A DNA stretch of 37,915 nt from an uncultured Eubacteriales bacterium (lineage in GTDB: Bacteria; Bacillota; Clostridia; Lachnospirales; Lachnospiraceae): the NCBI GenBank assembly GCA_900321855.1, contig ONXS01000006.1, forward strand, positions 1 through 37,915, read 5' to 3'. The position numbers were made by a program, and so were the translations under genes. Shown in pieces: positions 1-31,277 of the stretch. Each line of letters opens with the position of its first letter. The first letter of the stretch is position 1. The notes beneath the pieces are model-generated. The model searched no databases. It was not told the origin of the DNA and saw nothing but the letters and a program-made list of their open reading frames with translations.

Positions 1-1046
1 CCATATCCATTTAAAATCTCTATTCCAAAATTTCTGAATTCCGTTATATACTGCCTTTCTAATTTAGCTCCACCACATATGATATACCGTAAATTTCCAC
101 CAAATTGTTCTCTTACCGAGCGAAATAACACCTTTCTAAAATCAATTCCCACTTTTAAGAGTAATTGATTTATCTTTATCGTTTTCTCCAACTTATCACT
201 TAGCTTTTTCTCTTTTGCAGACTTCCATATCAATTTACTGAAATTTTCAATAAATAAAGGGACTAAAAAAAGTGTTTGAGGTCTTATATCCTGTAAACTT
301 CTCATAATAGTTTTAAGACTTTTATTAATATGAATTCGAAATCCATAATGAAAAGGCATTAATACACCTACCACTAAGCCAAATGCGTGATGAAATGGTA
401 AGAGTGCAACTGTATCACCTTCCAATTTAAAAAGTTGACAACTTCCATTTATATCTTCTACTATATTCCTTTGACTTAACATAACACATTTGTTCTTTCC
501 AGATGTGCCCGAAGTAAACATAATACAACACATTTTATCTACATTAATCTCAGATGATAACAATAAACCATTTGTATTTTTTGCAAAATCTATTCCCATT
601 TTTGTATATGTTTGAAAATGATTAAATGAAAATATATCCTTTTCTGTGTTTTGACCTTCTATGAATTCTTTATATGCATTGGAATAAAAAACACTCTGCA
701 CATCAGCATTAATAATAAGTGTGTGTATCTCTTGTTCTGGTAATTCTTTGTCTATAAGCACAGCTACATTTCCAGTATTCACAATTGCAAAAAATGTACA
801 TATCCACTCGTAAGAATTTTCTCCTACAAGTGCAATATGTTTCTCTTCAATACCTTTGCTTTGCAAGAAAAAACTTATGGACTGAACATCTTCATAAAAT
901 TGATGATATGTTTTTGTAATTATATTTTTGCCCTGATAAAATGAAAATGCAATTCCATTTGGATTACTATTCTTTTTTAACACAATCATATCGTTCAAAT
1001 CAGCAATTATTGGTAACTCATATAATTCATACGATTTATTTCTCAT
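1..1046 (-). CDS. AMP-dependent acyl ligase (fatty-acyl-CoA/ACP synthetase type), 3' end cut by window
   Basis: An open frame starts at ATG 1046-1044 and runs off the left edge without a stop, giving about 348 visible residues. It reads as a class I adenylate-forming enzyme: the phosphate-binding loop is FTSGTSGKNK (about residues 174-183), followed by LPFHHAFGLV, typical of FadD-like fatty-acid ligases, and the visible part ends at the NGYG (A5-type) motif. The C-terminal subdomain lies outside the window. The start is one base after the NRPS stop codon, so translation is probably coupled and both are on one transcript. Inference: it activates a carboxylic acid, most likely a fatty acid, for the condensation domain that begins the NRPS. 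The loop has N and C where KPKG is usual. A free-standing amino-acid adenylation domain is less likely. Substrate unknown. Confidence 0.85.
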   Translation of the reverse strand, partial: MRNKSYELYELPIIADLNDMIVLKKNSNPNGIAFSFYQGKNIITKTYHQFYEDVQSISFFLQSKGIEEKHIALVGENSYEWICTFFAIVNTGNVAVLIDKELPEQEIHTLIINADVQSVFYSNAYKEFIEGQNTEKDIFSFNHFQTYTKMGIDFAKNTNGLLLSSEINVDKMCCIMFTSGTSGKNKCVMLSQRNIVEDINGSCQLFKLEGDTVALLPFHHAFGLVVGVLMPFHYGFRIHINKSLKTIMRSLQDIRPQTLFLVPLFIENFSKLIWKSAKEKKLSDKLEKTIKINQLLLKVGIDFRKVLFRSVREQFGGNLRYIICGGAKLERQYITEFRNFGIEILNGY

Positions 1047-1047
1047 C

Positions 1048-4000
1048 TTACACCTCAAAATACCCTAATTCTCTAAAGTAATTTATGTATCCATCTATAT
1101 ATGTCTCATCTGTCTGATTCCATTCAAATCCTACTTTCTTCAAAAACCAGAGTGTAAAGTCATTCATAATACGAATATTACTGTCATAAACAAGTTTTCC
1201 AGCCTTATCCATATCATTTTGTACCGCTTCAAATATATACTCTCTGCCAGATTGTCTCATAGTGTCTTCCAATGATTTTATAAATGTGTTACCGTCTACT
1301 ATCTTCATCGAGATATTTAAACTTTGTACTACCTTCAAAAATTGGTCAAAATAAATCGGTTTGTTACTGTTTAGGTGAAAAATATTCTGTTTATCCGCAT
1401 ACTGTGCAATTTTTATTACGCCCTCTGCCGTCTTATCAATTGGTGAAAACTCTGCATACAAATACATCAGATAATCTGGAAACATTCCAAATTCCAAAAT
1501 TGCCTTTACTCTTGTTAAAAATGCATTGTTTTTATAATTCGGCTGAAATTTATAATCTGATTCTCTGTTTGTGAGATTTCCAACACGAATTACCTTTGCA
1601 TCAAGACCGTCAAGCATTGCATCATACACCACTTTTTCTGCCTCAAATTTACTCCTTACATAGACATTATCCAGTGGCTGTCCAATATAAAAAGAAGACT
1701 CATAGAACATTTTTTCTTCTGCTGAACGATATACTGAAAAATCATCTGCCAAACTGTTTCCACTCACACTCAATGTTGAAATATGAATCATTCTTGCATT
1801 TTTTGACTTAGCAAAATCTACAACATTTTTTGTGCCATTTACATTCATATTATTGAAATACTGATAAGAACCATAATGCTTGACACTGGCAGCAGTATGA
1901 ATCACTGTATGAATTTCATCTGTTGTATGAATAAATGACTCCTTCTGTGTGATATCCCCACATACTACAGTGATACGTTCATCTAAAATACTCAAATATC
2001 TTTCATCATAATAATATTTAATAATATTATAAAGTCTCTCGGTTGCTTTTATCTGATTTTCACCTCGAACAAGACAATATATATGTCCAGTCTCTTTTTC
2101 AAGTAGTTCCCCCAACACATGACTTCCCAAAAATCCCGTAGCACCTGTCAAAAATACATTTCCAAGATTTCGTCTTACTGGAATAAAATCATTTTCTATC
2201 TGATTTTTTTCAAAAATATACTGATACTTTTCAAAATCTGATTTCTGATAAACAGTTTTATTTTCTATTCCATCATGCAAAAATTTTTCCAACTGTGCAA
2301 TTGTAGGATAATCAAACACATTTTGTAAATTAAAATCAATACCTGATGTATGTGCTTTTGCAACATATTCAATTGCATACAAACTATCTCCACCAAGTTC
2401 AAAGAAATCATCTTCAATGCCAATTTCATCTATATGTAAAATCTGTTTTAATATCTTACATAGAACTCTCTCGAATTCATTAGACGGTTTGACGATATTT
2501 GTTCTTTCTACTGAAATATCTGGTAAAGGAAGAGATTTTCTATCTGTCTTTCCACTTGGTGTAACCGGCATCTTATCTAATTGCATAAAATAATTGGGAA
2601 CCATATATTTCGGCAGTTTTGACAGCAAATATGCTCGAAACTTTGCATGATCGATTTCGTGTTCACATATATAATATCCAACTAAAAACTGTTTTTTATT
2701 TTTATCCTCCTTTACTCCGGCAACAGCCTCTGTGATTCCTTTATAAGAATTCATTACACTTTCGACTTCTCCCAATTCTATTCGAAGTCCTCTGATTTTG
2801 ACCTGACTGTCTATTCTGCCTAAATACTCAATATCTCCATCTCTGTTCAATCGAACCAAATCACCAGTATGATACATAATCTTTCCATGTTGATTTTCAT
2901 CTGTTGCAAATGGATTTGTTACAAAAGTTCTTTTTGTTAATTCCGGATTATTTAAGTATCCATTTCCTACTCCTGCACCTGCAATACATAATTCTCCAGC
3001 AACACCTTGTGGTACTAATTGTCCATGCATATCAAGAATGTATGCCTGCGTATTTGCAATAGGTTTTCCAATTGTTATCTGCATATTAGTTCTATCTGTC
3101 TGATTGAGTTCGCCACCAATGTCCCATACACTACATTCACTTGGACCGATAGGATTAAAAATCTTTGCATCACTATACATAGTAAATTTATTTAACAATT
3201 CTTTTGTAAGAGTTTCACCAGATGTAACAATAACTTTTATTTTCTTGGCAAATTCTAGTTTTCCCTCTTCATTAAAATAAATCTTATATCTTGTTGGTGT
3301 AGTTTGTACGATATTTCCATTGTATTTATTTACCAAATTAGCAAATAAATCCTGTTTCGTACTCTCATCTTCACTTGCAAGCACAACCGTAAATCCATTT
3401 AATAGTGGCAATAACGACTCTGCTATAAAGAAATCAAAGGATATCGTATTTACGCTAATTGCAACAGGGTGTACCAACTTTCTACACTCTGGCAAAATAT
3501 TATTATTGATACAGAAATTGACCAGTCCTTTGTTACTTAATGTACAGCCTTTTGGTCTTCCTGTACTTCCTGAGGTAAATATTATGTAACATGTATCTTC
3601 AACATTTACTCTCTCAGATATATCCACAATATTATCTTTTAAAAACTTCCAATTTTCAATCATTACCTCATTTTCAAATTTTGTTTCATTCTCTTTATTC
3701 TGTAATATTACTTTGGCATTACTTGTCTGTAAAATATATTCAATTCTATCTTTTGGATATCTGGTGTCAATCGGAATAAACACCGCTCCAAGTCTCAAAA
3801 CTGCCAATTGCGCTATAATTACACGCTCATCTCGATTTAGATATACAGCTACTTTATCTCCTTTAGAGACTCCATTTTCTCTTAACATCATTGCCAAAGA
3901 ATTTGATAATGCATCTAGTTCTCCATAAGATATTTCTTTTCCTTGATAAATCAATGCTGTCTTGTCTCTATTTTGATTTACCTGCTGCTCAAATAAATCA

Positions 4001-7000
4001 ATTATTGTTTTTTGCGAATCATACTCAATCCTTGTTTGATTTATTTGATTTACCACATAATCTATTTCTTTGTCTCCCAAGACACATATGTCTGATAAAT
4101 TTTTACAATCCAATTGCCTAATAATATTATTCCAACCACTAAAGAGCTGATCCATAAGTATTTCATCATATTTTTCAGAATTCATCTCAAACCGAATGGT
4201 TACACTCTCCTTATGAGGAGAAACCTCTAATAGCAGATCAAATTTTGAAACATTTACATTCTCATATTTTGGTTTTAATCTCTCGCCTTCAATTACCAAA
4301 CTTGACAATTCGTCTGTCTGCAACACAAATGATGTATTGATAATATTTTTATCATTCATACCTACTGCATTGGCAATTTCAAAAAACGATAATTCCTGAT
4401 ATTCATATAATCCTAAAATATACTTCCTAATAGATGTAAAATAGTCATCTACAGATTTATTGGTATTAAAATAAACAGGTAATGTATTCACAAACATTCC
4501 CAATGTGTTTCTATATTTCAAATGATTTCTGTTTTGCAGTACAACACTACTTAACACATCATCTTTCGCTGTATATTTTGATAATAGAATTCCATATATA
4601 CCAAGATAGAACATTGTATCTGTAAGGTTATACTTTTCTTTATATCTCTTTACAATTTCAATATCATTGTCAGTCATTATATATTCTTTTGAATTCATAT
4701 CTGATTTTTTATCAGCAACAGGCAATTCCACTTTTTCAAAATCACATTTTAAATGTTCTTTGAAAAATCTTTTATACTCAGTAAAATCTCTCCTGTAGTA
4801 ATCATTTGAATAATTAAAATAGTCTGCCATCTCATTTTCACATTGATTTCCATTATATACAGATAAAATATTATGAATGAGAAGTCCCAAAGAAGTTCCA
4901 TCAGCAATAATATGGTGCATATCAAAGAGTATTTTATTTTCAAAAAACCCAATTCGTATAAGAACATCTTGTTCCAAATTAAATGGTTGAACAAATGACC
5001 TCACTGTCTCACCAGTATATTCCTTTATTTCCAACTTAGCATCTTTATCATATACTCCATATATTTCATCATCTTTTTGTAAAATATGCGTTTTTAATAT
5101 CTTATATTTATTCCATACGGTTTCAATTGCTCGTTTTAACTTCTCTATGTCCGTATGTACTGGTAAATCTACTTCTGCTGGCATATTGTAGCTCAATGAT
5201 TTTTTATTTTTCTGCCATTCGATATACAATGCTTTCTGTTGTGGTAATAAAATGTACTCGTTTGTTTCTTTTCTATTCTCAACTATTGTTGTTGGTCTTT
5301 CGTCAATTAATTGTGCTAATTTCTCTAATGAAGAGTTATCCATAATATCCTTAATTGTTATTTCACATAAGAATACTTCAGATATCTTCGAAATCATACT
5401 AATTGCAAGCAGACTATCTCCTCCCAGTTCAAAGAAATCATCATTTTCACCTACATTATCTATATTTAATAAATCCTTGAAAATATTTGCCAATTTCTTT
5501 TCTGTTTCTGTTTTAGGTGCTATATAGTCTTTTATTTCTGAATCAAAGTCTGGTATTGGTAAATTCTTCCGGTCTGTCTTTCCACTTGGAGTTGTTGGAA
5601 TATTGTCTAATCGCATAAAATAATTTGGAACCATATATTTAGGCAATTTTGAACCAATAAATGTCCTCAATTCCTTATCATCAATATCCTCCACTGATGT
5701 ATAATACCCTACTAAATATTGTCTATTATTTTCATCTTTTTTATCCGTAACTGCTGATAAAGTAATTCCCTTAAACTGAGTCATCACACTTTCAATTTCA
5801 CCAAGTTCAACGCGAAGTCCCCTGATTTTAACTTGAGTATCAATTCTACCCAGATATTCAATCTCACCATCAGTTCTCCAACTTGCCAAATCTCCTGTAT
5901 GATATAGTATTTCTCCATGCCTACTATTTTCTCGCACAAATGGATTTCTAGTAAATCTTTCCTTTGTTATGTCAGGACGATTTAAATATCCTTTTCCTAC
6001 ACCTTCTCCAGCAATACACAATTCTCCATGTACTCCAATCGGTAATAACTCATTATTTTTTCCAAGAATATATATCTGGGTATTCGCAATTGGTTTCCCT
6101 ATTGTAATATCACATGAATTTACTTTTATATTTGTAGACCATACCGTTGTTTCAGATGGACCATAAATATTAAATATATCTGCGTTCGTATATTTTCTCA
6201 ACTGTACATATAAATCTCTCGGAAATGCTTCACCACCAAGTATAATTGATTTTAATGTTTTCAAATATGAACATTTACTTGTATCTGAAATCAAACTTCT
6301 TAACCTAGTCGGTGTCGTCTGAAGAACTTCAACTCCATTTTCTGTAATCAACTTTGATAAGTCATTCTGATTATATGTCTGACTCTCTGATGCCATAATA
6401 ATTATTAAACCATTAATTAATGGTAATAAACTTTCCGTCACAAATATATCAAAGACAAAATTTGTAATTGAAACAATTTTGTTATACTCTTCATGAATTA
6501 AACTATGAAATACATTATTATTATTATCATCACAATAGTTAATAACACTACGGTGTGGCACCAGAACTCCTTTTGGTTTTCCAGTAGAACCAGAAGTAAA
6601 TACTGTATAACATAAATCTTCTATCTGATTTATATTTTCGATTTTACTTGTATTTTTTGCATAATCAAATTTCGATAACAAAACAGTATGAATATCTAAC
6701 TTGTTATCACATTGATAACAAAGACATATTTCACATTTTGCATCTTCAATCATAAATCTAATTCTGTCTTCTGGATAACTAGGATCTATTGGCATATAAG
6801 CACCACCAGCCTTTAAAATTCCAAGCATCGCAACAATGATGTGCCAACTCCTTTTAGAAATAATCGGCACTATATCATTTCTTCCAATTCCATGATTTCT
6901 TAATTCATATGCCAACGAATTTGACATTTCATCAATTTCTTTGTAAGTAAAACGCTTATCTTCAAATATCAATGCAGTTTTGTCTGGCGTTTTCTTCGCC

Positions 7001-8364
7001 TGTAATTCAAATAGTTCATGAACACATTTATCCTTTGAATATTCTACATATGTGTCATTAAAATCGTTTATAATGTATTCTTTTTCCTTATATGTAAGGA
7101 TATTAATATGAGTTAAATATATGTCATTCCTCTCAGAAACCTGCTCTATGATTGACATAAACCTGTCTAAAATAAGATTTACTTCTAATTCGTTTTCGAA
7201 TATATTTTTTTGATAATCTACTGTAATCCTGTGTGTTGATGTGTCATCTCTATTATCAATGTGAATCGTAAATGGTACTTCACTATATCCATTTGAATAC
7301 CACTCTGTAGTGGCATCTGTATGTGTCTTGGAATTTTGATAACTTATCATGGTTTCATATAGATTTCCTACTAAGTTATGTTTTTCTCTTATATACTTTA
7401 AAATTTCACTGTATGGATATTTTTGATGTCTGAATATGCTCATATGTTTTGTCTGGATTTTTTTTAACAATTCTAAAAATGATAATTTTTCCCCGACATC
7501 AATTGTCAGTGGAATAGTTGAAACAAACATTCCAATGGTTTGTTTTTCGAGCTTAGTATTTCTGTTTAATACAGGAATTCCAATGGTAATATTTGTATTT
7601 TCATCATTTATTTTATATAAATAAGTAACTAATATTCCTTCAAAAAATACCGCAGGTGTAACATTATTTTTTTTGCAAAATTCTTCTATCCTTGAATTAA
7701 TCTGATTTTCTAATTTTCTGCTAACCCTTCCACTCTCAATAGATTCATTCACATGTTTCCTATAATGAATTTCTGATTTTTCCGGTTTTATCTCGTATTC
7801 ATTTTCCCAGTATTTTTTATCTCTACGATACTTCTCTGATTCCAAATATATATTCTCTTGTTTTATCCAATCGAAATAGCTATAGTCCTCTTTTTCACAC
7901 TCCTTATGTTCTTTTAAATTCAGATATTCCTTATCAACAAGTTCTGCCAAAAGGCTAAAAGACCATGCATCACAAATTAAATGATTCATACAAATCAAAA
8001 TTCCTGTCTTTTCATTTACCTTAAAAACTCTAATTTTGTACATTTTACCATTTACTAATTCTATTGGTTCTTGAGCAAATCTTTGAGCAAACTCATCAAA
8101 CTCCTGTTTTGAAAAGAATTCTGTATATGGAATATCCCCTCGATAATCCGAATTCATAACCTGATATGGAAAATCCGCCTCATAAAATTTTAGACTAAAT
8201 ACTGCCTGTTTCTTAATCACATTTTTTAGTGCTTTTAACAATAAACTAATATCTTTTTCGCAATTATAAAATATTGCACCACATTGGTTTGCGATTGCCG
8301 TATTTTCATAATATTTTTGAACATTCCATATATTTTTTTGAGGTGTTGTTAATCTATAATACAT
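1048..8364 (-). CDS. Two-module non-ribosomal peptide synthetase, C-A-T-C-A-T-R
   Basis: 2438 residues. Rough domains: C1 1-430, A1 445-935, T1 950-1015, C2 1040-1440, A2 1453-1935, T2 1965-2030, thioester reductase 2070-2438. Visible motifs: A1 FTSGSTGKPKG (about 588) and YGPSETTVW; T1 LGGDSL (Ser about 980); C2 MHHIIADG (about 1150); A2 FTSGSTGRPKG (about 1600); T2 LGGDSL (about 1991); reductase LTGATGFLGSH (about 2078) and YVRSKFEAEK (about 2235). The reductase predicts NAD(P)H-dependent release of an aldehyde rather than a free acid. C1 precedes the first A domain, as in lipo-initiating synthetases; its active-site motif is NHLICDA, keeping the second His and the Asp but not the first His or Gly. 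There is no TE and no epimerase. Hand alignment to the GrsA code gives A1 about D-I-T-Q-I-G-I-V-W-K, close to a glycine-type code as I recall it; A2 about D-F-A-Q-V-S-P-V-W-K, not assignable. The RBS GGGAG sits before ATG 8364. No phosphopantetheinyl transferase is in the window. Confidence 0.95.
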   Translation of the reverse strand: MYYRLTTPQKNIWNVQKYYENTAIANQCGAIFYNCEKDISLLLKALKNVIKKQAVFSLKFYEADFPYQVMNSDYRGDIPYTEFFSKQEFDEFAQRFAQEPIELVNGKMYKIRVFKVNEKTGILICMNHLICDAWSFSLLAELVDKEYLNLKEHKECEKEDYSYFDWIKQENIYLESEKYRRDKKYWENEYEIKPEKSEIHYRKHVNESIESGRVSRKLENQINSRIEEFCKKNNVTPAVFFEGILVTYLYKINDENTNITIGIPVLNRNTKLEKQTIGMFVSTIPLTIDVGEKLSFLELLKKIQTKHMSIFRHQKYPYSEILKYIREKHNLVGNLYETMISYQNSKTHTDATTEWYSNGYSEVPFTIHIDNRDDTSTHRITVDYQKNIFENELEVNLILDRFMSIIEQVSERNDIYLTHINILTYKEKEYIINDFNDTYVEYSKDKCVHELFELQAKKTPDKTALIFEDKRFTYKEIDEMSNSLAYELRNHGIGRNDIVPIISKRSWHIIVAMLGILKAGGAYMPIDPSYPEDRIRFMIEDAKCEICLCYQCDNKLDIHTVLLSKFDYAKNTSKIENINQIEDLCYTVFTSGSTGKPKGVLVPHRSVINYCDDNNNNVFHSLIHEEYNKIVSITNFVFDIFVTESLLPLINGLIIIMASESQTYNQNDLSKLITENGVEVLQTTPTRLRSLISDTSKCSYLKTLKSIILGGEAFPRDLYVQLRKYTNADIFNIYGPSETTVWSTNIKVNSCDITIGKPIANTQIYILGKNNELLPIGVHGELCIAGEGVGKGYLNRPDITKERFTRNPFVRENSRHGEILYHTGDLASWRTDGEIEYLGRIDTQVKIRGLRVELGEIESVMTQFKGITLSAVTDKKDENNRQYLVGYYTSVEDIDDKELRTFIGSKLPKYMVPNYFMRLDNIPTTPSGKTDRKNLPIPDFDSEIKDYIAPKTETEKKLANIFKDLLNIDNVGENDDFFELGGDSLLAISMISKISEVFLCEITIKDIMDNSSLEKLAQLIDERPTTIVENRKETNEYILLPQQKALYIEWQKNKKSLSYNMPAEVDLPVHTDIEKLKRAIETVWNKYKILKTHILQKDDEIYGVYDKDAKLEIKEYTGETVRSFVQPFNLEQDVLIRIGFFENKILFDMHHIIADGTSLGLLIHNILSVYNGNQCENEMADYFNYSNDYYRRDFTEYKRFFKEHLKCDFEKVELPVADKKSDMNSKEYIMTDNDIEIVKRYKEKYNLTDTMFYLGIYGILLSKYTAKDDVLSSVVLQNRNHLKYRNTLGMFVNTLPVYFNTNKSVDDYFTSIRKYILGLYEYQELSFFEIANAVGMNDKNIINTSFVLQTDELSSLVIEGERLKPKYENVNVSKFDLLLEVSPHKESVTIRFEMNSEKYDEILMDQLFSGWNNIIRQLDCKNLSDICVLGDKEIDYVVNQINQTRIEYDSQKTIIDLFEQQVNQNRDKTALIYQGKEISYGELDALSNSLAMMLRENGVSKGDKVAVYLNRDERVIIAQLAVLRLGAVFIPIDTRYPKDRIEYILQTSNAKVILQNKENETKFENEVMIENWKFLKDNIVDISERVNVEDTCYIIFTSGSTGRPKGCTLSNKGLVNFCINNNILPECRKLVHPVAISVNTISFDFFIAESLLPLLNGFTVVLASEDESTKQDLFANLVNKYNGNIVQTTPTRYKIYFNEEGKLEFAKKIKVIVTSGETLTKELLNKFTMYSDAKIFNPIGPSECSVWDIGGELNQTDRTNMQITIGKPIANTQAYILDMHGQLVPQGVAGELCIAGAGVGNGYLNNPELTKRTFVTNPFATDENQHGKIMYHTGDLVRLNRDGDIEYLGRIDSQVKIRGLRIELGEVESVMNSYKGITEAVAGVKEDKNKKQFLVGYYICEHEIDHAKFRAYLLSKLPKYMVPNYFMQLDKMPVTPSGKTDRKSLPLPDISVERTNIVKPSNEFERVLCKILKQILHIDEIGIEDDFFELGGDSLYAIEYVAKAHTSGIDFNLQNVFDYPTIAQLEKFLHDGIENKTVYQKSDFEKYQYIFEKNQIENDFIPVRRNLGNVFLTGATGFLGSHVLGELLEKETGHIYCLVRGENQIKATERLYNIIKYYYDERYLSILDERITVVCGDITQKESFIHTTDEIHTVIHTAASVKHYGSYQYFNNMNVNGTKNVVDFAKSKNARMIHISTLSVSGNSLADDFSVYRSAEEKMFYESSFYIGQPLDNVYVRSKFEAEKVVYDAMLDGLDAKVIRVGNLTNRESDYKFQPNYKNNAFLTRVKAILEFGMFPDYLMYLYAEFSPIDKTAEGVIKIAQYADKQNIFHLNSNKPIYFDQFLKVVQSLNISMKIVDGNTFIKSLEDTMRQSGREYIFEAVQNDMDKAGKLVYDSNIRIMNDFTLWFLKKVGFEWNQTDETYIDGYINYFRELGYFEV

Positions 8365-8551: not shown

Positions 8552-9286
8552 TTACACATACGGATTATAATAATGATTTCTCTTCTTCGTCCCTCTTCCA
8601 TACTGAATTGCATGTTTTGGACACTTGTTGATACAGGCTGTACATTTGGAACATTTTTCTTTTTTCCAGACTGGTTTGTGATTAATCATCTCTATGACAT
8701 GTTCCTGACAATTTTTCTCACAAAGCCCACAGCCAACACAAGCATCTGTGACAGAGAATTTTTTTGTACCTTTCACACGGTGATATACGCCAAGCAAAAC
8801 AGGAGTCAGAATACTTTTTGAAATTTTTCCAGTTTTCTCCTGCAAAATCGCTTTTTTTATCTTTACAATCTGCCTATCTGATGTCTGCAATTTCTTTTTA
8901 TTCTCTTCTTCAGGTGCAATATTATAATAAATCATCGCATTATCCGGCATTACCAAAGTGTATACATTCGATAAATGAATTTTTCTCTCCGACAATAAGT
9001 TTTTTAATTGTCCTCCAGCTCCTGAAATACTTGCACCACAGGTAATGACTGCATAGACATAGGAGGTATGTTTGATTTTCAAATTTCGAATAAATTCACT
9101 TACTATGTCATTTACGATATAAAAATACACTGGAAATACAAATCCCACTTTTTCATTGTCTTGTAATTCATATGTAAATTCTTTCTTTTCTAACGCCTCT
9201 GCTATATTAATTAATTTTTCATTGTCATCAATCAGTTTTTTCGCAGCATATAGAGAATTTCCTGTTCCACTATAATAAAAAATCAC
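8552..9286 (-). CDS. EFR1-type flavodoxin-ferredoxin fusion protein
   Basis: 244 residues, soluble. The N-terminal half is a flavodoxin-like fold with the FMN-phosphate loop YSGTGNS (residues 5-11). The C-terminal part carries two 4Fe-4S ferredoxin motifs: CVGCGLCEKNC and CSKCTACINKCP. This pairing matches the EFR1-type flavodoxin/ferredoxin proteins common in clostridia, which act as electron carriers or small reductases. The start codon is GTG at 9286, chosen because GGAGG lies 9 nt upstream and the flavodoxin strand begins at once (MIFYYSGTGNS). It is the last gene of the tetrapyrrole unit, 89 bp after cbiK, with a terminator just behind. A redox role in tetrapyrrole or corrinoid metabolism is inferred from position only. 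Confidence 0.85.
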   Translation of the reverse strand: MIFYYSGTGNSLYAAKKLIDDNEKLINIAEALEKKEFTYELQDNEKVGFVFPVYFYIVNDIVSEFIRNLKIKHTSYVYAVITCGASISGAGGQLKNLLSERKIHLSNVYTLVMPDNAMIYYNIAPEEENKKKLQTSDRQIVKIKKAILQEKTGKISKSILTPVLLGVYHRVKGTKKFSVTDACVGCGLCEKNCQEHVIEMINHKPVWKKEKCSKCTACINKCPKHAIQYGRGTKKRNHYYNPYV

Positions 9287-9375: not shown

Positions 9376-10254
9376 TCATTTCTCTTCGCACAGAATATAT
9401 TCCCGCATCACCGCATAATCCAACAATCCATGAAAAACCTCTTCAATCTCTAACTTTCCATATTTCTTTCTAATATAGGAAATCACAGACTCTGGATTGT
9501 CGCCAAAAATATCTTTCTTCCCATGATAGCCAAGCGAAAATAACAGTGGGTGCACGACAACTGTCTGATACTTTTCAATTTGTTTTAACTTATCGCTATT
9601 TTCAGATGTAAAGCAGACATTCTGGGGCTGTTTCGCTACTTGCTCATGAGCGCAGGCTGTTTCGCAACCTGCGTTCAAATCATTCATTGTCACCACAAAG
9701 TGATTGCGTATCGTTTTGTTTTGAAACTCTCTCTCTAACAAATCATAGCCATTTTTCAAGCCATACTCCGAATAATCTCCGTGTCCCACCCACAGATGAG
9801 CAATATCCGTGTCCTGTGTCCTTATATTCATTTCTGATTTGTTTGCAATCATTTCAAGTAACCTTGCAACATCTAAAATCCTATTCTGATGTAACAATTC
9901 TGTTCTGACTTCAATGACACATTTGTGACTGGTGCGCGCATTTTTCAACTTCTCTCGCAGTTCTTCTGTCTGCTCAAGCAAAGACTGGTACTCCACTCCT
10001 GCAATCATCAAAACAGGTATCATGATAATTTTTTGATATTTTTCATCTTCTATCTGTCCAAATAGTTCTTCCACTGAAAAAACTTTTTCACCAGTTCTGT
10101 CAAAAATCTTCTGCCTGATTTTCTTACTTGTAAATGCAAACATGATTTCATCTTCCGGATAGACCTGTCGCATCTCGTCAAGCAATAGATTGATTCCCTG
10201 TCTTGCCTGCCTGTCACTTGTCCCGTTAAATACTACAATTCTCAGCGTATACAT
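9376..10254 (-). CDS. cbiK: Sirohydrochlorin cobaltochelatase, CbiK type
   Basis: 292 residues. It should insert Co2+ into sirohydrochlorin, the entry to anaerobic (early-cobalt) cobalamin synthesis. The sequence begins with the chelatase pattern IVVFNGTSD. Candidate metal-binding histidines are in WVGHGDYS (middle) and GYHGKKDIFGDNPES (C-terminus), the second matching the CbiK signature region. The start at 10254 is preferred over an upstream in-frame start because AAGGTGA lies just upstream and the extra 37 residues would be the hemD gene read in another frame. It overlaps the end of HemC-CobA-HemD by 13 bp, implying translational coupling. No signal peptide, so cytoplasmic. An iron chelatase (siroheme) function cannot be excluded from sequence alone. 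Confidence 0.85.
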   Translation of the reverse strand: MYTLRIVVFNGTSDRQARQGINLLLDEMRQVYPEDEIMFAFTSKKIRQKIFDRTGEKVFSVEELFGQIEDEKYQKIIMIPVLMIAGVEYQSLLEQTEELREKLKNARTSHKCVIEVRTELLHQNRILDVARLLEMIANKSEMNIRTQDTDIAHLWVGHGDYSEYGLKNGYDLLEREFQNKTIRNHFVVTMNDLNAGCETACAHEQVAKQPQNVCFTSENSDKLKQIEKYQTVVVHPLLFSLGYHGKKDIFGDNPESVISYIRKKYGKLEIEEVFHGLLDYAVMREYILCEEK

Positions 10255-12623
10255 GCTATCACCTTTTCTGTGAGCGATTGATAATCTGTCTGGTCTGAAA
10301 CATGGACATGGGTAATTCCATATTTTTGAAGTTTTTCTGCTGTTTTTTTGCCGATTGCAAAACATCTGTAGTTATTATAGTCTGCTCTCTGATTTTCCGG
10401 TATCTGCTCGAAAAATCGCTCTGCCATAGACGCACAGGTAAACACAAACGCATCTGCATCTGCCATTTTTTTAGCATCTATTGAGGTGTGAATTTTTACA
10501 TTTTCATATACTGCGACTGTTTCAATCTCCAAATCTGGTCTGGTCTTTTTTAAATCTGTAGTCCATACATTCTCTGAAACACGAGCTGTAATATGTATCA
10601 GTTTTGAATCTTTCTCTGCATGTGTTTCGAGATAAGTTCCCATCTCCTTACTGCCTGCAAAAAATTCATCATTCTCAGCAAAAATACCATAGGAGTTCAG
10701 TGCATCTCTCGTCTTACTTCCAACCACATAAATCTTCTTTCCAAACAGAGCACGAATATCCTGTTTTTTCAAATACTGCTCAAAAAAGAAATGAACACCA
10801 TGTTTGCTTGTAAATACAAGGTTGTCACATTGATTTATTCTTTCTATCTGTTCTGCAATGGATATCGAACAGATTTCCCCAAGCTGAATTTCCTCTACAT
10901 TTGCACCAAGTTCTCTAAAATTTCTTGTCAAGTCAGATACCTGTCTTCCAATTTTTGCAACCATCATCTGTTTTCCAAACAGCTTTTTATCCTCAAAAAA
11001 GTTTAAGGACTCTCTGAGCGAAATGACCTCACCGTATATAATCAGTGCCGGCGACTGAATATGTTCTTCCTCTACTTTTTGTACAATGTTTTCCAATGTT
11101 CCAACGCAAGATTTCTGATTGCTTGTCGTTGCCTTTGAAATCACTGCAATCTGGCTGTCTTTCCCTGCGCCTGCCTGTAAAAGTCCGCTCACAATCTCTG
11201 AGAGTTTATTTAGTCCCATTAAGAGTACCCATGTCTCTTTTCTCTTTGCAATCTGATGAAAATCGAGGTCTGCCAGCTCATCTCTCTTATTGTGTGCTGT
11301 GATGACATGAAATCCCGTGGAAATTCCTCTGTGTGTGATTGGAATTCCGGCAAATGCCAGACCTGCAATTGAGGAACTGATGCCCGGAACTTCCTCAAAG
11401 GTCACACCTGCTAAGTCACATGCAAGCCCCTCTTCTCCGCCTCTTCCAAATACATAGGGGTCTCCACCTTTCAAGCGGACAGTCAGCGGATATTCCATAG
11501 ATTTTTTTATCAGTAACTCGTTAATTTCCGGCTGTATCATAGCGTGGTTGTGGTTTTCTTTTCCGACATAGATGCACTCACAGTCCGGCTTGCACTCATT
11601 TAACAGCTCCATAGGAATTAGGCGGTCATAGACAATGCAGTCTGCCTGACGAATGAGTTCCATTCCTCTCACGGTAATCAAAGACGGATTTCCGGGGCCA
11701 GCTCCGACTAAAGCGACTGTTCCAGCTACTTTTCTTCGCATTTGTTTTGCGACCTCTGCCGCTAAGTTCTCCGGATTATTCCCAATACCTTCGGTAATAT
11801 AAATCTTTTTATCCTTCAAATCTTTTGAAGAGGGAATTTGTGACAAGGCTCGAAGTAAATATCTTCCGTCTTCCAATTTTGTGCACACTGCGCCAATCGC
11901 TGTGTGACAATCCCCTCCGATTGCCTCTAAATATCCTCTCTCTGCTCTTTTTTGTACTTCGGTGTCGTCATCTCCGAGACGGTTGATTTTATCAAGGAGT
12001 TCTTCCTGTGACTGATTGACTTCTATGGCAAGAATTCCCTGTGCCGGTGCCGGAATCATCTGGTCAAAGGATAAGACTGCCTTGTGCTTTATATTCATGC
12101 CAAGACGATTGAGCCCTGCAGCAGCCAGCACAATTCCGTCTAACTTTTGTTCTTCCATTTTTCTAAGTCTGGTGTCCACATTTCCGCGAATATCTTTGCA
12201 GGTAATATCTGGTCGCAATTGTTTTAACTGCAAGGCTCTTCTACTGCTTCCAGTTCCAATCACAGCTCCCGATTTTAATGTCTCCAAGCTGTCTGCCTCT
12301 CTGAGAATTAACACATCTCTTGAGTCTTCTCGCTTTAGGGATTTTGCAAAGACAAGTCCCTCCGGAAGTTTGGATGGCATATCTTTCATGCTGTGAACAG
12401 CCATATGAATCCTGCCGTCTAGCAGCTCCTCCTCAATCTCTTTGACAAATACGCCCTTTGTTCCCATTTGACTGAGTGAGCTCTTCTGATCTTTATCCCC
12501 TGTGGTCTTTATGATTTTTATTTCAAAACTATCCTCTGGGTATGCCTGTTCTAACATCTGTTTCACATAGGTTGTCTGCGTCAATGCCAGCCTAGACCCC
12601 CTTGTTCCTATGATATATTTCAC
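10242..12623 (-). CDS. Trifunctional HemC-CobA-HemD fusion (hydroxymethylbilane synthase / uroporphyrinogen-III methyltransferase / uroporphyrinogen-III synthase)
   Basis: 793 residues in one frame. Residues 1 to about 295 are hydroxymethylbilane synthase (MKYIIGTRGSRLA; cofactor Cys about 241 in GGDCHTAIG). Residues about 297-540 are the SAM-dependent methyltransferase CobA/SUMT (VALVGAGPGNP, RLKGGDPYVFGRGGEE, VPGISS, GIPITHRG). Residues about 545-793 are uroporphyrinogen-III synthase (VFTSKHGVHFFFEQ). One chain would take porphobilinogen through hydroxymethylbilane and uroporphyrinogen III to precorrin-2. CobA-HemD fusions are known in anaerobes; HemC joined as well is less common in my recollection. 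It starts with GTG directly after the hemA TAA, with AGGAAG upstream inside hemA. No frameshift or linker stop is visible, so the fusion looks genuine. Confidence 0.93.
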   Translation of the reverse strand: MKYIIGTRGSRLALTQTTYVKQMLEQAYPEDSFEIKIIKTTGDKDQKSSLSQMGTKGVFVKEIEEELLDGRIHMAVHSMKDMPSKLPEGLVFAKSLKREDSRDVLILREADSLETLKSGAVIGTGSSRRALQLKQLRPDITCKDIRGNVDTRLRKMEEQKLDGIVLAAAGLNRLGMNIKHKAVLSFDQMIPAPAQGILAIEVNQSQEELLDKINRLGDDDTEVQKRAERGYLEAIGGDCHTAIGAVCTKLEDGRYLLRALSQIPSSKDLKDKKIYITEGIGNNPENLAAEVAKQMRRKVAGTVALVGAGPGNPSLITVRGMELIRQADCIVYDRLIPMELLNECKPDCECIYVGKENHNHAMIQPEINELLIKKSMEYPLTVRLKGGDPYVFGRGGEEGLACDLAGVTFEEVPGISSSIAGLAFAGIPITHRGISTGFHVITAHNKRDELADLDFHQIAKRKETWVLLMGLNKLSEIVSGLLQAGAGKDSQIAVISKATTSNQKSCVGTLENIVQKVEEEHIQSPALIIYGEVISLRESLNFFEDKKLFGKQMMVAKIGRQVSDLTRNFRELGANVEEIQLGEICSISIAEQIERINQCDNLVFTSKHGVHFFFEQYLKKQDIRALFGKKIYVVGSKTRDALNSYGIFAENDEFFAGSKEMGTYLETHAEKDSKLIHITARVSENVWTTDLKKTRPDLEIETVAVYENVKIHTSIDAKKMADADAFVFTCASMAERFFEQIPENQRADYNNYRCFAIGKKTAEKLQKYGITHVHVSDQTDYQSLTEKVIACIR

Positions 12624-13938: not shown

Positions 13939-15234
13939 TTATCGATATTCATTCTGAAAATATTCTTTTATTACCGTTGCTGTCGCTCTTAAATCCTCTT
14001 TGGTATGTGCATCCGATACAAACATTGCCTCATACTGAGAAGGTGCGGTATAAATTCCGTGGTCGAGTAAATAGCCGAAATACTGTGCATATTTCTTCGT
14101 ATCACTAGAGGTAGCCGATTCGAAATCATTGACCTCTTTTTCGGTAAAGAATACGGACAGAAGAGAACCCACCTGATTGACGTGTACCTGACTGCAGGCA
14201 TTTTTAATTGTGTCTGCCAAGTAAGCTCCGCTCTTTTCTAATCTGTCATAAATCGCCAAATCATTTTTCAAAATCGTGAGTGTTGCAATGCCTGCCGCTG
14301 TTGCAATTGGATTTCCAGACAGTGTTCCCGCCTGATAAACCGAACCAACTGGTGAAACCTTATCCATAATCTCTTTTCTTCCGCCATAAGCTCCCACTGG
14401 CATGCCTCCGCCGACAATCTTACCAAGTGTTGTCATATCAGGAGTTACTTTGTAATACTGCTGTGCACCGCCGAGAGACAGACGAAATCCTGTAATTACC
14501 TCATCAAAAATTAACAGAGAATTGTATTTTAACGTAAGTTCTCTGAGTCCCTGCAAAAATCCCTCCGCCGGAAGAACAACTCCCATATTTGCCGCCACAG
14601 GTTCCACGATAACGGCTGCAATGTCATCGCTGTTCGCCTCAAACAATGCCTCTACAGAAGATAAATCATTGTACTCTGCCACTAGGGTATGTTTGGTAAA
14701 ATCAGCAGGAACACCCTCACTGTCTGGGACAGATGTTGTGAGGGCAGCAGAACCTGCCTTTACTAAAAGTCCATCGGAATGTCCGTGATAACAGCCTCTG
14801 AACTTTATAATTTTATTTTTTCCTGTAAATCCCCTCGCCACACGAATAGCACTCATGACTGCCTCTGTTCCGGAACTTACCAATCTGCTGACTTCCATAG
14901 ACGGAATACATTCTGCAATCAAGTCTGCAAGAATGACTTCTTTCTCTGTCGGTGCGCCATAAGTTAATCCGAGGTCACACGCCGATTTCACTTTCTCAAT
15001 CACTTCTGGGTGAGCATGTCCAAGAATTCCCGGTCCCCAAGAACAGACGTAATCAATCATCTCGTTTCCGTCTACGTCAATAATTCTGTCCGCATATGCT
15101 CTCTCTATAAATCTTGGTGTTCTGCCAACAGAGCCAAATGCTCGGACAGGGCTGTTCACTCCTCCCGGTATAATTTTCTTTGCGCGCTCAAAGAGTGCTG
15201 CCGATTTGCTGTTGTTTTCTTTATATAAACTCAT
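13939..15234 (-). CDS. hemL: Glutamate-1-semialdehyde 2,1-aminomutase
   Basis: 431 residues, full family length. A PLP enzyme converting glutamate-1-semialdehyde to 5-aminolevulinate. Visible signatures: IPGGVNSPVRAF near the N-terminus, FRGCYHGHSDG, IFDEVITGFR before the PLP-binding segment, and the Schiff-base Lys in TTLGKIVGGGMPVGA (about 269). The start at 15234 has AGGAG 8 nt upstream. It lies between hemB and hemA, and the spacer upstream carries a three-armed inverted repeat that could affect its RBS. Confidence 0.97.
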   Translation of the reverse strand: MSLYKENNSKSAALFERAKKIIPGGVNSPVRAFGSVGRTPRFIERAYADRIIDVDGNEMIDYVCSWGPGILGHAHPEVIEKVKSACDLGLTYGAPTEKEVILADLIAECIPSMEVSRLVSSGTEAVMSAIRVARGFTGKNKIIKFRGCYHGHSDGLLVKAGSAALTTSVPDSEGVPADFTKHTLVAEYNDLSSVEALFEANSDDIAAVIVEPVAANMGVVLPAEGFLQGLRELTLKYNSLLIFDEVITGFRLSLGGAQQYYKVTPDMTTLGKIVGGGMPVGAYGGRKEIMDKVSPVGSVYQAGTLSGNPIATAAGIATLTILKNDLAIYDRLEKSGAYLADTIKNACSQVHVNQVGSLLSVFFTEKEVNDFESATSSDTKKYAQYFGYLLDHGIYTAPSQYEAMFVSDAHTKEDLRATATVIKEYFQNEYR

Positions 15235-15252
15235 TGCTTTCTCCTATTCCTA

Positions 15253-15348
15253 GCGTTTTTCCTGTCATAAGGTTGTGCCCCTTCGCTTCGCTCTGGGGCA
15301 GGTCGGAAAAACGCATATATACAGGAACTTCGTTCCTAGCGTTTTTCC
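15253..15348 (-). repeat. Three-armed inverted/direct repeat in the hemB-hemL spacer
   Basis: The 10-mer GCGTTTTTCC lies at 15253-15262 and again at 15339-15348, where it is the end of hemB; its reverse complement GGAAAAACGC is at 15305-15314. The middle arm can therefore pair with either outer arm. A smaller stem TGCCCC/GGGGCA (15276-15281, 15295-15300) and a GGAAC/GTTCC hairpin near 15324-15335 nest within. The arm at 15253-15262 is a few bases from the hemL ribosome binding site. Confidence 0.75.
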
Positions 15349-16304
15349 TCAATCCATCTTGCGACATCGAGGGCGTGGTAGGTGATAATCATCTTTGCTC
15401 CTGCTCTCTTTAATCCTGTCATAATCTCCATGACAATCTTTTTCTCATCAATCCAGCCATTTGCAGCAGCAGCCTTTACCATAGAGTATTCGCCACTGAC
15501 ATTGTAGGCTACGATTGGAACTCTAAAATTATTGTCAATCTCCTTGATAATGTCCATATATGCCATTGCCGGTTTTGCAATAATGAAATCTGCTCCCTCT
15601 AAAATATCTTCTTCGACCTCATTCATCGCCTCTTTTCCATTTGCCGGATCCATCTGGTAGGTCTTTCTGTCTCCAAATCCCGGTGCAGAATGAGCCGCAT
15701 CACGAAATGGACCGTAAAATCCAGAGGCAAATTTTGCGGAATATGCCATAATCGACACATAGAGAAATCCTGCGTTGTCTAACGCCTCACGAATGACCTC
15801 TACGCGCCTGTCCATCATATCACTCGGTGCAATGATGTCTGCACCGGCTTTTGCATAGGCTACTGCTGCTTTTGACAACAACGGAAGTGTCTCATCATTT
15901 AAAATAATACCGTCTTTTACAAGACCACAGTGTCCATGTGATGTGTACTCACAGAGACATACATCTGCAATTACTACAATCTCCGGATAATGTGATTTGA
16001 TATACCGAATTGCCTGAGGTACAACTCCCTCTTCATCATAGGCAGCACTTCCCACCTCATCTTTGTGTGCCGGAATTCCAAAGAGTAATACTGACACAAT
16101 TCCAGCCTCGACAATCTGATTCATAATCTCATGAAGTCGGTCTACGGAATACTGATTGATTCCCGGCATAGACTCAATTGGATTGCAGATATTTTCTCCT
16201 TCTATGACAAAAATCGGACAAATTAATTCATCTGTCCTCACATGATTTTCACGCAACATTTTTCTCAATGATTCACTTGTTCTGAGTCGTCTTGTTCTGT
16301 CCAT
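15336..16304 (-). CDS. hemB: Porphobilinogen synthase (delta-aminolevulinic acid dehydratase), zinc-type
   Basis: 322 residues, full length. It condenses two 5-aminolevulinates into porphobilinogen. The cysteine-rich DVCLCEYTSHGHCG (about 115-128) indicates an active-site zinc rather than the magnesium-only form. The active-site lysines are expected in YSAKFASGFYGPFRDA (about 190) and AKPAMAYMD (about 243), and VSGEYSM is conserved. Start ATG 16304 is preceded by AGGAGA. A 200-bp spacer separates it from the precorrin-2 dehydrogenase gene upstream, so it could have its own promoter as well as read-through. Its last codons are repeated in the hemL spacer. Confidence 0.97.
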   Translation of the reverse strand: MDRTRRLRTSESLRKMLRENHVRTDELICPIFVIEGENICNPIESMPGINQYSVDRLHEIMNQIVEAGIVSVLLFGIPAHKDEVGSAAYDEEGVVPQAIRYIKSHYPEIVVIADVCLCEYTSHGHCGLVKDGIILNDETLPLLSKAAVAYAKAGADIIAPSDMMDRRVEVIREALDNAGFLYVSIMAYSAKFASGFYGPFRDAAHSAPGFGDRKTYQMDPANGKEAMNEVEEDILEGADFIIAKPAMAYMDIIKEIDNNFRVPIVAYNVSGEYSMVKAAAANGWIDEKKIVMEIMTGLKRAGAKMIITYHALDVARWIEEKR

Positions 16305-16386
16305 TTCCTTTTTCTCCTATCACATATATGTTTTGCTATAATGATTCGTAACTATTTCGTTATCACATTTATTGTGGCTAAAATAC

Positions 16387-16414
16387 AGTGCAAGTAGTCA
16401 ATGTTTCTTGCACT
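16387..16414. repeat. 8-bp inverted repeat in the spacer upstream of hemB
   Basis: AGTGCAAG (16387-16394) and CTTGCACT (16407-16414) form a perfect 8-bp inverted repeat with a 12-nt centre. No T-run follows, so it is a weak terminator candidate at best; an operator or leader hairpin is equally possible. The rest of the 200-bp spacer shows no gene. Confidence 0.45.
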
Positions 16415-16504
16415 CCGTTGCGAAAGCAAAAATCATACTGCATAACATAATTCACCGCTTGTACCTTATGCAACATTTAATTGAAATCGTTTCCTTATAA
16501 ATAG

Positions 16505-17074
16505 TTATGAATGAATCTTTCTCAACTCACTCTCAAAAAACTGGTCGTATAGTTCCCGTTTTTCTTCTAATGTAAGACTCTCATCTTTTTGTATCTGACT
16601 TCGCAATTCTCCCATTTTGTCATTTAGCTCCGCTAAATCTTCGGTTACAAATTCAGAAATCTTTTCCCTAATATACTGAGATACCCGCGGGCTTTTGCCA
16701 CCGGTAGAAACCGATACGACAATATCACCCTGCTTATGAATGGCAGGCAGGGATATTTCATGAAATCCCTTGCTGACATTTAGGCACAATATATTTCTTT
16801 TTTTGCACTCAGACTCCACTTCCGCATTGACCTCATCACTCGATGTCGCAGCAATCACAAAGAAGAATGTTTCTACATCATCCGGTTTCCATTTTCGATA
16901 TTCTTTAATTATCCTATCATTCCTACTGATTTTCTCTGAAATCTCTGGTGCGATAACTGATATTGTAGCACCACTCTCATAAAATGTACACATCTTTTTG
17001 TATGCAATTTCTCCACCACCGACGACAAGACAATTTTTGCCCTCAAAATCAATTTCTATTGGTACATATGACAT
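16505..17074 (-). CDS. Precorrin-2 dehydrogenase (siroheme synthase N-terminal domain type)
   Basis: 189 residues. NAD+-dependent oxidation of precorrin-2 to sirohydrochlorin. The Rossmann motif CLVVGGGEIAYKK is at about residues 15-27, and GKSPRVSQYIREK is the conserved middle motif of the SirC/CysG-N family. It lacks the methyltransferase half of CysG, which fits because CobA is part of the triple fusion downstream. First gene of the tetrapyrrole unit, with a good promoter 40-65 bp upstream and a terminator of the previous unit before that. Whether the branch feeds siroheme, cobalamin or both is not decided here; cbiK at the operon end favours cobalt. Confidence 0.93.
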   Translation of the reverse strand: MSYVPIEIDFEGKNCLVVGGGEIAYKKMCTFYESGATISVIAPEISEKISRNDRIIKEYRKWKPDDVETFFFVIAATSSDEVNAEVESECKKRNILCLNVSKGFHEISLPAIHKQGDIVVSVSTGGKSPRVSQYIREKISEFVTEDLAELNDKMGELRSQIQKDESLTLEEKRELYDQFFESELRKIHS

Positions 17075-17110
17075 ATTTATATTTGCCCTGCTTTCGTAAA
17101 TTTTGAGATT

Positions 17111-17139
17111 ATTGTATCATTTTTGCAAAATGGTTACAA
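17111..17139 (-). promoter_or_regulatory. Putative promoter of the tetrapyrrole operon
   Basis: Minus strand: -35 TTGTAA (17139-17134), 17-bp spacer, -10 TACAAT (17116-17111). The spacer contains the palindrome TTTTGCAAAA, a possible operator. It is positioned about 40 bp before the first gene and after a terminator. Confidence 0.55.
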
Positions 17140-17236
17140 GCCGAGTCATAGAAGTTTTCATATTCGAGATATTCTTCCGGTTTTGCATTTTGCGAGAATA
17201 ATGACAGACTGCACGCTTTGCAAACAATCTATTGTC

Positions 17237-17279
17237 AAAAAAAGACCACAGTTGAGCATATTCTGCTCTCATGTGGTCA
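17237..17279 (-). terminator. Rho-independent terminator of the sulfotransferase/ABC operon
   Basis: GACCACA at 17244-17250 pairs with TGTGGTC at 17272-17278, extended by GAGCA/TGCTC around a short loop with a small internal mismatch. Seven T follow on the minus strand (17243-17237). It lies about 30 bp after the stop of the 17307-18797 gene. Confidence 0.88.
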
Positions 17280-17306
17280 GTTTTACATAATATAATGTTT
17301 AACCTT

Positions 17307-28414: not shown

Positions 28415-28480
28415 AGGGTCTGACCCCGTTAGTTTTTGCTAACTAAAGTTAGATGTCTCTGCGGGGTCTGACCCCAATAA
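28415..28480 (-). repeat. REP-like palindromic repeat, copy A
   Basis: Two GGGGTCAGACCCC-type palindromes (28415-28427, slightly degenerate, and 28463-28475) flank a GTTAG/CTAAC hairpin. It covers the last codons and stop of the EAL gene. Copy B is at 30364-30435 and a weak copy C at 21799-21833. Confidence 0.85.
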
Positions 28481-30363: not shown

Positions 30364-30435
30364 CGTTAGTTTTTTGATTAGTTTACGCTAACTGAAGTTA
30401 GATGTTTCTATGGGGTCTGACCCCAATAATAAATC
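30364..30435 (-). repeat. REP-like palindromic repeat, copy B, at the trmD 3' end
   Basis: The palindrome GGGGTCAGACCCC (30412-30424) is followed on the minus strand by ACATCTAAC and a TTAG/CTAA hairpin, as in copy A. It encodes the last residues of TrmD (GSDPIETSNFS) and its stop. Confidence 0.85.
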
Positions 30436-31110: not shown

Positions 31111-31116
31111 CTTTAA

Positions 31117-31277
31117 TTTCTCCTATACGAATTAGTGCAAAACATCTGATAATAATCTACTAATCCTTTTAATAAATGTACTTTTACAACTTTGTTTTCT
31201 CCTATACGAATTAGTGCAAAACATCTGATATTAATCTACTAATCCTTTTAATAAATGTACTTTTACAACTTTGTTTT
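31117..31277 (-). repeat. 79-bp tandem duplication covering the rimM 3' end and the trmD leader
   Basis: Two copies with period 79 (TCCTATACGA recurs at 31121 and 31200) and few differences. The upstream-transcribed copy carries the last 15 or so rimM codons and the stop; the second copy changes the stop TAA to TTA and ends at the trmD RBS. Confidence 0.95.

Follow-up and report, generated by a model that had tools for sequence, protein, structure and literature searches.

The window analyzed here is the whole of contig C62 (ONXS01000006.1; 37,915 bases) of genome G000, from an uncultured Lachnospiraceae bacterium, probably of gut origin, whose 2.09-Mb assembly comprises 128 contigs and is 83% complete. 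Its left end carries a gene for a non-ribosomal peptide synthetase (NRPS) followed by the first part of a gene for an acyl ligase, both on the minus strand. The NRPS gene is a single ATG-start open reading frame running from 8364 to 1048 (7.3 kb) and encodes 2438 amino acids, which profile searches resolve into condensation (C), adenylation (A), carrier (T) and thioester reductase (R) domains in the order C-A-T-C-A-T-R. The two genes and their domains are:

1-1046, minus strand: AMP-forming acyl ligase of fatty-acid type, open to the contig edge after 348 residues (Pfam, BLAST, tree)
1048-8364, minus strand: complete NRPS gene, C-A-T-C-A-T-R, 2438 residues (open reading frame, Pfam, profiles)
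7057-8364, minus strand: C1, condensation domain assigned as starter-type, residues 1-436, NHLICDAWS (Pfam PF00668, trees, motif)
5551-7032, minus strand: A1, adenylation domain, residues 445-938, code DITQIGIVWK, glycine-like (profiles, code)
5293-5514, minus strand: T1, carrier domain with the GGDSL serine (profiles, motif)
4039-5268, minus strand: C2, condensation domain assigned as internal-type, HHIIADG (Pfam, profiles, tree)
2521-4014, minus strand: A2, adenylation domain, code DFAQVSPVWK, substrate uncertain (profiles, code)
2269-2484, minus strand: T2, carrier domain with the GGDSL serine (profiles, motif)
1054-2226, minus strand: R, thioester reductase domain, GATGFLG and YVRSK (Pfam PF07993, 143 bits; profiles, motifs)

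Pfam recognizes two Condensation, two AMP-binding (each with AMP-binding_C), two PP-binding and one NAD_binding_4 domain in the protein, with E-values of 1.4e-152 for AMP-binding, 2.4e-106 for Condensation and 1.1e-41 for NAD_binding_4. A 7.3-kb reading frame with such matches far exceeds what chance could produce. Both T domains contain GGDSL, and R contains GATGFLG and YVRSK. C1 reads NHLICDAWS, in which the second His and the Asp of the HHxxxDG motif are kept, and C2 reads HHIIADG. A preliminary description of this DNA had proposed C-A-T-C-A-T-R within a single protein, and the reading frame, Pfam, the profile order and the signature residues all bear this out. Its statement that the first C domain has no loading A domain also holds, because the profile match of C1 already begins at residue 3. 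The solved relatives of R include the R domain of AusA (4f6l) and 6vtj. Matches of the NRPS to NCBIfam models of D-alanine and CoA ligases were set aside as cross-family. A further NRPS module elsewhere, which would have changed the picture, was not found in the 83%-complete genome; the only two Condensation matches from the Pfam search of the assembly both lie within this NRPS.

In a mixture-model tree of 55 well-covered C domains, taken from the window plus 31 loci belonging to its family and order, C1 falls in a clade of 14 (support 100/99) whose members all stand first in their proteins. This clade takes in every first C domain with a ligase in its locus (12/12, window included) and no internal domain (0/36), and five of the seven first-position domains without a ligase lie outside it. 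A tree extended to 104 domains returns a C1 clade of 44 members, with 22/22 ligase-linked first domains and 0/55 internal ones, from a set that carries a bias, C1 itself having been used to retrieve the added loci. These loci were obtained with a profile from an alignment of three C1 domains, which retrieved 36 loci; L150-L152, being weak or partial, were left out of the counts. A scan of genome contigs with the whole NRPS as query found no relative. L125, L128 and L130, which repeat the DNA of L060, L127 and L061, were kept among the 33 clade loci described below and left out of the extended tree. The first-in-protein domain of L088 was counted as internal since another NRPS gene precedes it, and truncated C domains were unused.

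Four first-in-protein C domains from outside were also compared, from Bacillus amyloliquefaciens (beside dacB, in a 635-residue frame), a Paenibacillus polymyxa plasmid, Eleftheria terrae and Priestia (beside dhb genes). We take the Bacillus domain to be that of the fengycin position; the starter status of the four references is read from gene position. The four fall together with the C1 clade in a group of 46 rows (100/99) that includes none of the 46 internal domains kept, in a single-matrix tree from which L090 was left out and in which the Priestia and Eleftheria rows are flagged as long branches that meet. The solved starter domain RzmA-Cs is among the structure matches of C1 and absent from those of C2, which is of internal type by the tree and has LgrA and TycC as its best solved relatives. 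C1 thus resembles starter domains such as RzmA-Cs (7C1H/7C1K) in its tree placement, but RzmA-Cs keeps HHxxxDG, as far as the available part of the source shows (PMC7804268), and C1 has NHLICDA there. Taken over the three trees, which set C1 with starter-type domains and apart from internal ones, a starter-type assignment is well supported. Together with the ligase beside the NRPS, this placement favors the N-acylation proposed in the preliminary description, with the acyl chain itself a prediction.

The ligase gene begins directly behind the NRPS, with one base between the stop codon (TAA, 1050-1048) and the ATG (1046-1044), in exact agreement with the preliminary description. Its best BLAST relative is the ligase beside the NRPS of an Enterocloster bolteae metagenome-assembled genome (MAG; locus L124; 48% identity), and in the ligase tree it pairs with L127, adjoining L124. 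The frame is open at the contig end, and the cluster does run past the left edge, as had been noted. When the ligase of L082 (P0003) serves as the genome query, the next best match after the window ligase is the right end of contig C50. There, in an orientation that fits a continuation, lie a ligase C-terminus, an acyl carrier protein (ACP) of 71 residues and a phosphopantetheinyl transferase (PPTase) of 190 residues.

The ligase frame on C50 has two unlike parts, and its GC content changes from ~30% in a 98-residue tail to 54% in the head. The tail is 57% identical to the L124 ligase. The highest identity of the head to any of the ligases compared is 34% by BLAST (38%, to L129, in the alignment used for the tree), and in the ligase tree the head sits on a long branch within the clade of the window ligase. 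The GC split and the differing kinship of the halves lead us to reject a second complete ligase, and the head looks like another organism's homolog joined in assembly. The feature is:

L059 10750-12256 (G000:C50 right end): apparent chimeric contig end, a 54% GC, foreign-looking ligase half joined to a 30% GC ligase tail (GC, BLAST)

The C50 ACP shares 43-51% identity with the three best cluster ACPs, those next to the ligases in L082, L124 and L060. The PPTase shares 44% identity with the PPTase that comes immediately behind the C-A-T-R gene in L118, and its best model is AusB (NF047349; 56 bits against a cut-off of 225); the whole assembly has two PPTase matches. The ligase tail, the ACP and the PPTase are thus each best matched to NRPS-adjacent genes among the sequences compared. 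We infer that C50 probably carries the remainder of the cluster behind its chimeric end, in which case the genes would run NRPS, ligase, ACP, PPTase, all in the same orientation. A search to the left for a carrier protein, PPTase and exporter had been suggested; the first two are present on C50, given this probable link, and no exporter was identified in the window, to which the search was confined. The transporter genes of the window are of uptake type by family (NMT1-like substrate-binding proteins with BPD permeases). No regulator could be tied to the cluster within the window, where the search ended.

A close parallel to the loading step is the fatty-acid-amide cassette OaaA-OaaACP-OaaC of Coprococcus eutactus, which shares a ligase, a discrete ACP and a condensation step, as described in the accessible part of a 2026 preprint (PMC13142362). 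Five free-standing C proteins of the same family as the window's genome, one of them of the same genus, adjoin a ligase, and two also adjoin a detected ACP. The two that were tested match 12KH, that is OaaC, at 613 and 361 bits. All five fall inside the C1 clade (42 rows, 100/100; 99/86 with the outside starters added), on a long stem whose exact branching is unsure in these single-matrix trees; 18 rows (near-duplicates, long branches and both L090 internal domains) were dropped beforehand. The ligases behave likewise. One clade (96/96) unites 17 NRPS-linked ligases, the five cassette ligases and the C50 head. Outside it fall four further ligase-like proteins from the window's genome, three on the A-domain side. 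The window ligase therefore groups with ligases of NRPS loci and fatty-acid-amide cassettes, and not, as the preliminary description had allowed for, with enzymes unrelated to lipid activation.

The C1 motif points the same way. Ala replaces the Gly of HHxxxDG in 29 of the 44 C1-clade domains and Ser in 2 of the 44; among the internal domains, 1 of 55 is non-Gly. In the accessible part of the preprint, C_FAA domains are ACP-dependent condensation domains, are placed next to starter C domains and carry Ser or Ala at that Gly in 42% and 36% (PMC13142362). Set against the Oaa motif, (D/H)HxxxD(S/A), the NHLICDA of C1 matches in the second His, the Asp and the Ala, and its first residue is Asn. 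Starter C domains typically take acyl-CoA (PMC7804268, PMC13142362, both as excerpted), and for OaaC with oleoyl-CoA the same part of the preprint records no product (PMC13142362). An acyl-ACP is the likelier donor for C1, because C1 and the ligase both lie in clades shared with OaaC-type cassettes and because of the Ala/Ser motif, which in C1 itself is Ala. The cassette C protein is free-standing, whereas C1 is continuous with A-T-C-A-T-R in one protein, where its expected substrate is an amino acid bound to a carrier and not a free amine. We class the loading step as one that would work like a fatty-acid-amide cassette without being one.

Cassettes of this kind also occur separately. At positions 1906-5224 of L162, from a genome of the window's own genus (G008), an OaaC homolog, an ACP and a ligase stand in a row, likely a fatty-acid-amide cassette. 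L161 has the same trio, and L160, L163 and L164 have the C protein and the ligase, with no ACP found by the search.

The acid loaded by the ligase could be an aromatic or short branched carboxylic acid instead of a fatty acid. Feruloyl-CoA synthetase and succinylbenzoate and oxalate ligases are among the best solved relatives of one cluster ligase, and the Priestia first C domain, which lies beside dhb genes, belongs to the larger starter clade as well. However, ligases of OaaC-type cassettes group with the window ligase, and the characterized OaaA uses oleate according to the part of the preprint at hand (PMC13142362). We consider such an acid unlikely and a fatty acid the better reading.

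Adenylation codes were read by motif. The code of A1, DITQIGIVWK, recurs identically in seven more A domains from five other loci (L117, L121 twice, L124 twice, L126 and L129). LgrA A2, which we take to activate glycine, reads DIANLCIIY by eye with its last position cut off, a comparison that leaves A1 unsettled. Some relatives in the clade have textbook glycine codes (L133, L140 and L142). A1 shares 6 of 10 positions, including Trp331, with the glycine code DILQLGMIWK, and Trp331 was derived from glycine domains and is also found in cysteine ones, as given in the accessible part of the source (PMC12283262). A literature text search of the code strings matched only DILQLGMIW and DILQLG. We put glycine as the substrate of A1 at somewhat better than even. 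Among the domains compared, the only near copies of the A2 code, DFAQVSPVWK, are those of L119 and L121. Thus, the code prediction suggested in the preliminary description gives a glycine-like A1 and an uncertain A2.

Taken together, these features suggest that the locus probably encodes a lipid-initiated dimodular NRPS releasing an N-acyl dipeptide aldehyde. The ligase would activate a fatty acid and load it onto the small discrete ACP, itself armed by the Sfp/AusB-type PPTase. C1 would then take the acyl chain off the ACP and attach it to the T1-bound amino acid, most likely glycine, and C2 would couple the acylated residue to the amino acid on T2. Finally, R would free the chain with NAD(P)H as an N-acyl-Gly-Xaa aldehyde. 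The ligase tail, ACP and PPTase would come after the NRPS, on the same strand, and have become separated onto contig C50. The domain order, the motifs, the starter placement of C1 and the ligase (often with an ACP) beside the NRPS of relatives are seen in the sequence; the C50 link, an acyl donor on ACP and not on CoA, glycine at A1, the two-electron release and any inhibition of proteases by the product are predictions.

R may release a different product. A four-electron reduction would yield a lipopeptide alcohol, N-acyl-Gly-Xaa-ol. R domains with an aldehyde or an alcohol outcome share a fold, and for the window R domain the Pfam match gives the family only, with the AusA R domain and 6vtj among its relatives. 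The published gut relatives are nonetheless described as aldehydes in the available parts of their sources (PMC8518294, PMC12327764), and we regard the alcohol as an unlikely outcome.

The preliminary description left a choice between an N-acyl dipeptide aldehyde and a pyrazinone. If C1 were inactive or an ordinary LCL domain, a free dipeptide aldehyde could cyclize to an aureusimine- or pyrazinone-type product. The best NCBIfam match of the whole NRPS is indeed AusA (NF047350, 1387 bits), and the PPTase resembles AusB, but the AusA score is far under the cut-off of 2500, C1 keeps the second His and the Asp and is starter-type by tree, and the ligase and ACP would be left without a role. The pyrazinone route needs a free alpha-amine, which makes N-acylation and pyrazinone formation mutually exclusive. 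Since the evidence favors N-acylation, we judge a pyrazinone very improbable; the aldehyde part of the earlier choice stands as a prediction. The window NRPS resembles AusA/AusB (NF047350, NF047349) in its two modules plus R and in the C50 PPTase, but adds a starter C1, a ligase and an ACP, and scores little over half of the model cut-off. AusA begins with an A domain and has no N-terminal condensation domain. AusA is thus a weaker model for this NRPS than the N-acyl peptide aldehyde kind.

Several observations weigh against a lipid-initiated NRPS releasing an N-acyl dipeptide aldehyde. With regards to C1, the first His of its motif is replaced by Asn, and its best solved matches, alone or as a profile, are the non-starters bacitracin synthase 3, LgrA and TycC. 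Two of the 14 clade members in the 55-domain tree have no ligase in the available stretch, and in the same tree C1 and C2 are among the rows whose composition draws a flag from the tree tool. Two internal domains of L090, in which a pattern search recognized no HHxxxDG, adjoin the C1 clade in both the 55-domain (90/87) and 104-domain trees. Among the 33 clade loci, 21 have no ligase in the available stretch. As to the cluster itself, the link between C62 and C50 is indirect, with ~90 ligase residues on neither contig and a chimeric C50 end, and the 83%-complete assembly may miss another NRPS gene. A1 differs from the glycine code at four positions, the A2 code matches none known to us and was given no substrate, and R could carry the reduction further to an alcohol.

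Among the 33 named loci in the C1 clade (three of them the repeats mentioned above), 16 are C-A-T-C-A-T-R, 10 are C-A-T-R and two have three modules; one (L129) is split in the profile search and four are broken or cut. By label, 12 belong to Lachnospiraceae, 13 to Clostridia only, 4 to Clostridiaceae, 2 to Bacilli and 1 to Oscillospiraceae, and 1 has none. A ligase lies within the available stretch in 12 of the 33, a lower bound as many stretches are short. The gene order is NRPS-ligase-ACP in L124 and L060 and R-ligase-ACP in L082. One-module C-A-T-R relatives with glycine-like codes are L060/L125 (DITQIAAVWK) and L146 (DILQMGMVWK). With the whole NRPS as query, 40 of 397 genomes in the family sample (the window's included) give matches at E-values up to 1e-120, some of them NRPSs of other build.

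Two gene arrangements in other loci were also observed. In L117, from a Blautia sp. MAG, a 1022-residue protein with a CHAT domain (protease-type) is encoded at 14612-17677, directly downstream of the C-A-T-C-A-T-R NRPS, which may make a protease inhibitor. The more distant L064, L071 and L077 share a recurring order of NRPS, a 617-637-residue protein, a response-regulator-like protein (by eye), ligase and ACP, which suggests regulated clusters.

Within the window, the ligase and NRPS genes have a GC content of 29-31% (21-22% at third codon positions), and the hem genes to the right have 38-44% (36-39%). The NRPS is present in one of nine genomes of the genus, namely the window's own. This low GC and narrow presence suggest that the locus is a gained island. 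The same narrow presence, together with the broken or cut reading frames of some relatives (L119, L120 and L122), would fit a decaying or silent cluster with an intact NRPS, the rest lost and the C50 ACP and PPTase belonging elsewhere. We hold this to be quite improbable, as the 7.3-kb frame is open with all motifs present and the C50 genes have the NRPS-adjacent best matches given above.

A flavodoxin/ferredoxin gene with a GC content near that of the cluster lies next to the NRPS:

8552-9286, minus strand: EFR1-family flavodoxin/ferredoxin, directly upstream of the NRPS, 32.9% GC (NCBIfam NF038196, 235.9 bits)

Its membership in the cluster is unsupported; a tblastn search of the 36 relative loci gave one partial match (L119, 38% over 54 residues), and distant or partial EFR1 protein matches occur in nine of nine genomes of the genus, the window's own included.

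Other features of the window concern its remaining genes. A dispersed repeat of ~60 bases (9605-9670), in which a GCAGG...CCTGC hairpin can be made out by eye, is contained in frame within a cbiK-like cobalt-chelatase gene (9379-10254). It occurs at six other places in the assembly (C58, C54, C113, C37, C125 and C97), five copies at 78-83% identity over 59-61 bases and one at 74% over 104. In the hem/sirohaem run, porphobilinogen deaminase, a tetrapyrrole methylase and HemD are fused in one 793-residue frame (10242-12623). A GA-cis RNA (RF02987; 64.8 bits, gathering threshold 34.7) lies at 15267-15352 between the genes for a class-III aminotransferase (13939-15234) and aminolaevulinate dehydratase (15336-16304), overlapping the end of the latter. 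A 52-base repeat (88%) containing the palindrome GGGTCTGACCCC is found at 28429-28480 and 30378-30429, where the gene for an EAL protein and trmD, which are unrelated to each other, both end in it and share the C-terminal peptide GSDPxETSNFS. Finally, a 79-base tandem duplication (95%) at 31108-31265 takes in the 3' end of rimM and the sequence that follows, as far as the end of the trmD frame.

The remark in the preliminary description that gut-clostridial C-A-T-C-A-T-R synthetases have been linked to dipeptide aldehydes and pyrazinones probably goes back to Guo et al. (2017); the window NRPS shares this two-module build with terminal R. N-acyl dipeptide aldehydes of gut clostridia are already published, and the window locus adds a member whose chemistry is predicted. 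The gut-clostridial NRPS of BGC0001686 makes such an aldehyde, N-octanoyl-Met-Phe-H (PMC8518294), and ruminopeptin, from the rup genes of Ruminococcus bromii, is an N-acylated Leu-Glu dipeptide aldehyde (PMC8518294, PMC12327764); both were compared with the window by description only, from partial texts. The residues differ, as A1 of the window is glycine-like and A2 unassigned, in contrast to Met-Phe and Leu-Glu. In the accessible part of the source, gut-clostridial compounds of this class inhibit cathepsins and proteasomes in vitro and cause endoplasmic reticulum stress in an epithelial cell line (PMC8518294).

A broader origin can be proposed, which is speculative and on balance rather improbable. 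One reductive NRPS branch in gut Clostridia may have arisen when a fatty-acid-amide cassette, with its ligase, ACP and an ACP-gated C domain carrying Ala in place of the Gly of HHxxxDG, was fused to A-T-(C-A-T)-R. The window member would then yield N-acyl-Gly-Xaa aldehydes and the one-module C-A-T-R relatives (L060/L125 and L146) N-acyl-glycinals. If so, further reduction of the glycinals would give N-acylethanolamines, host endocannabinoid-like lipids, made by an NRPS. Among the papers listed by a literature search, judged by titles and the starts of abstracts, none reports an NRPS route to an N-acylglycinal or N-acylethanolamine, which does not prove that no such report exists.

The locus supplies a minimal gene set of NRPS, ligase, ACP and PPTase. 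With its relatives it adds a branch with small-residue codes, whose starting step appears to be kin to that of the fatty-acid-amide signals of the gut. If the glycine and ACP readings are true, gut protease inhibitors and endocannabinoid-like lipids would be connected through a single gene family.

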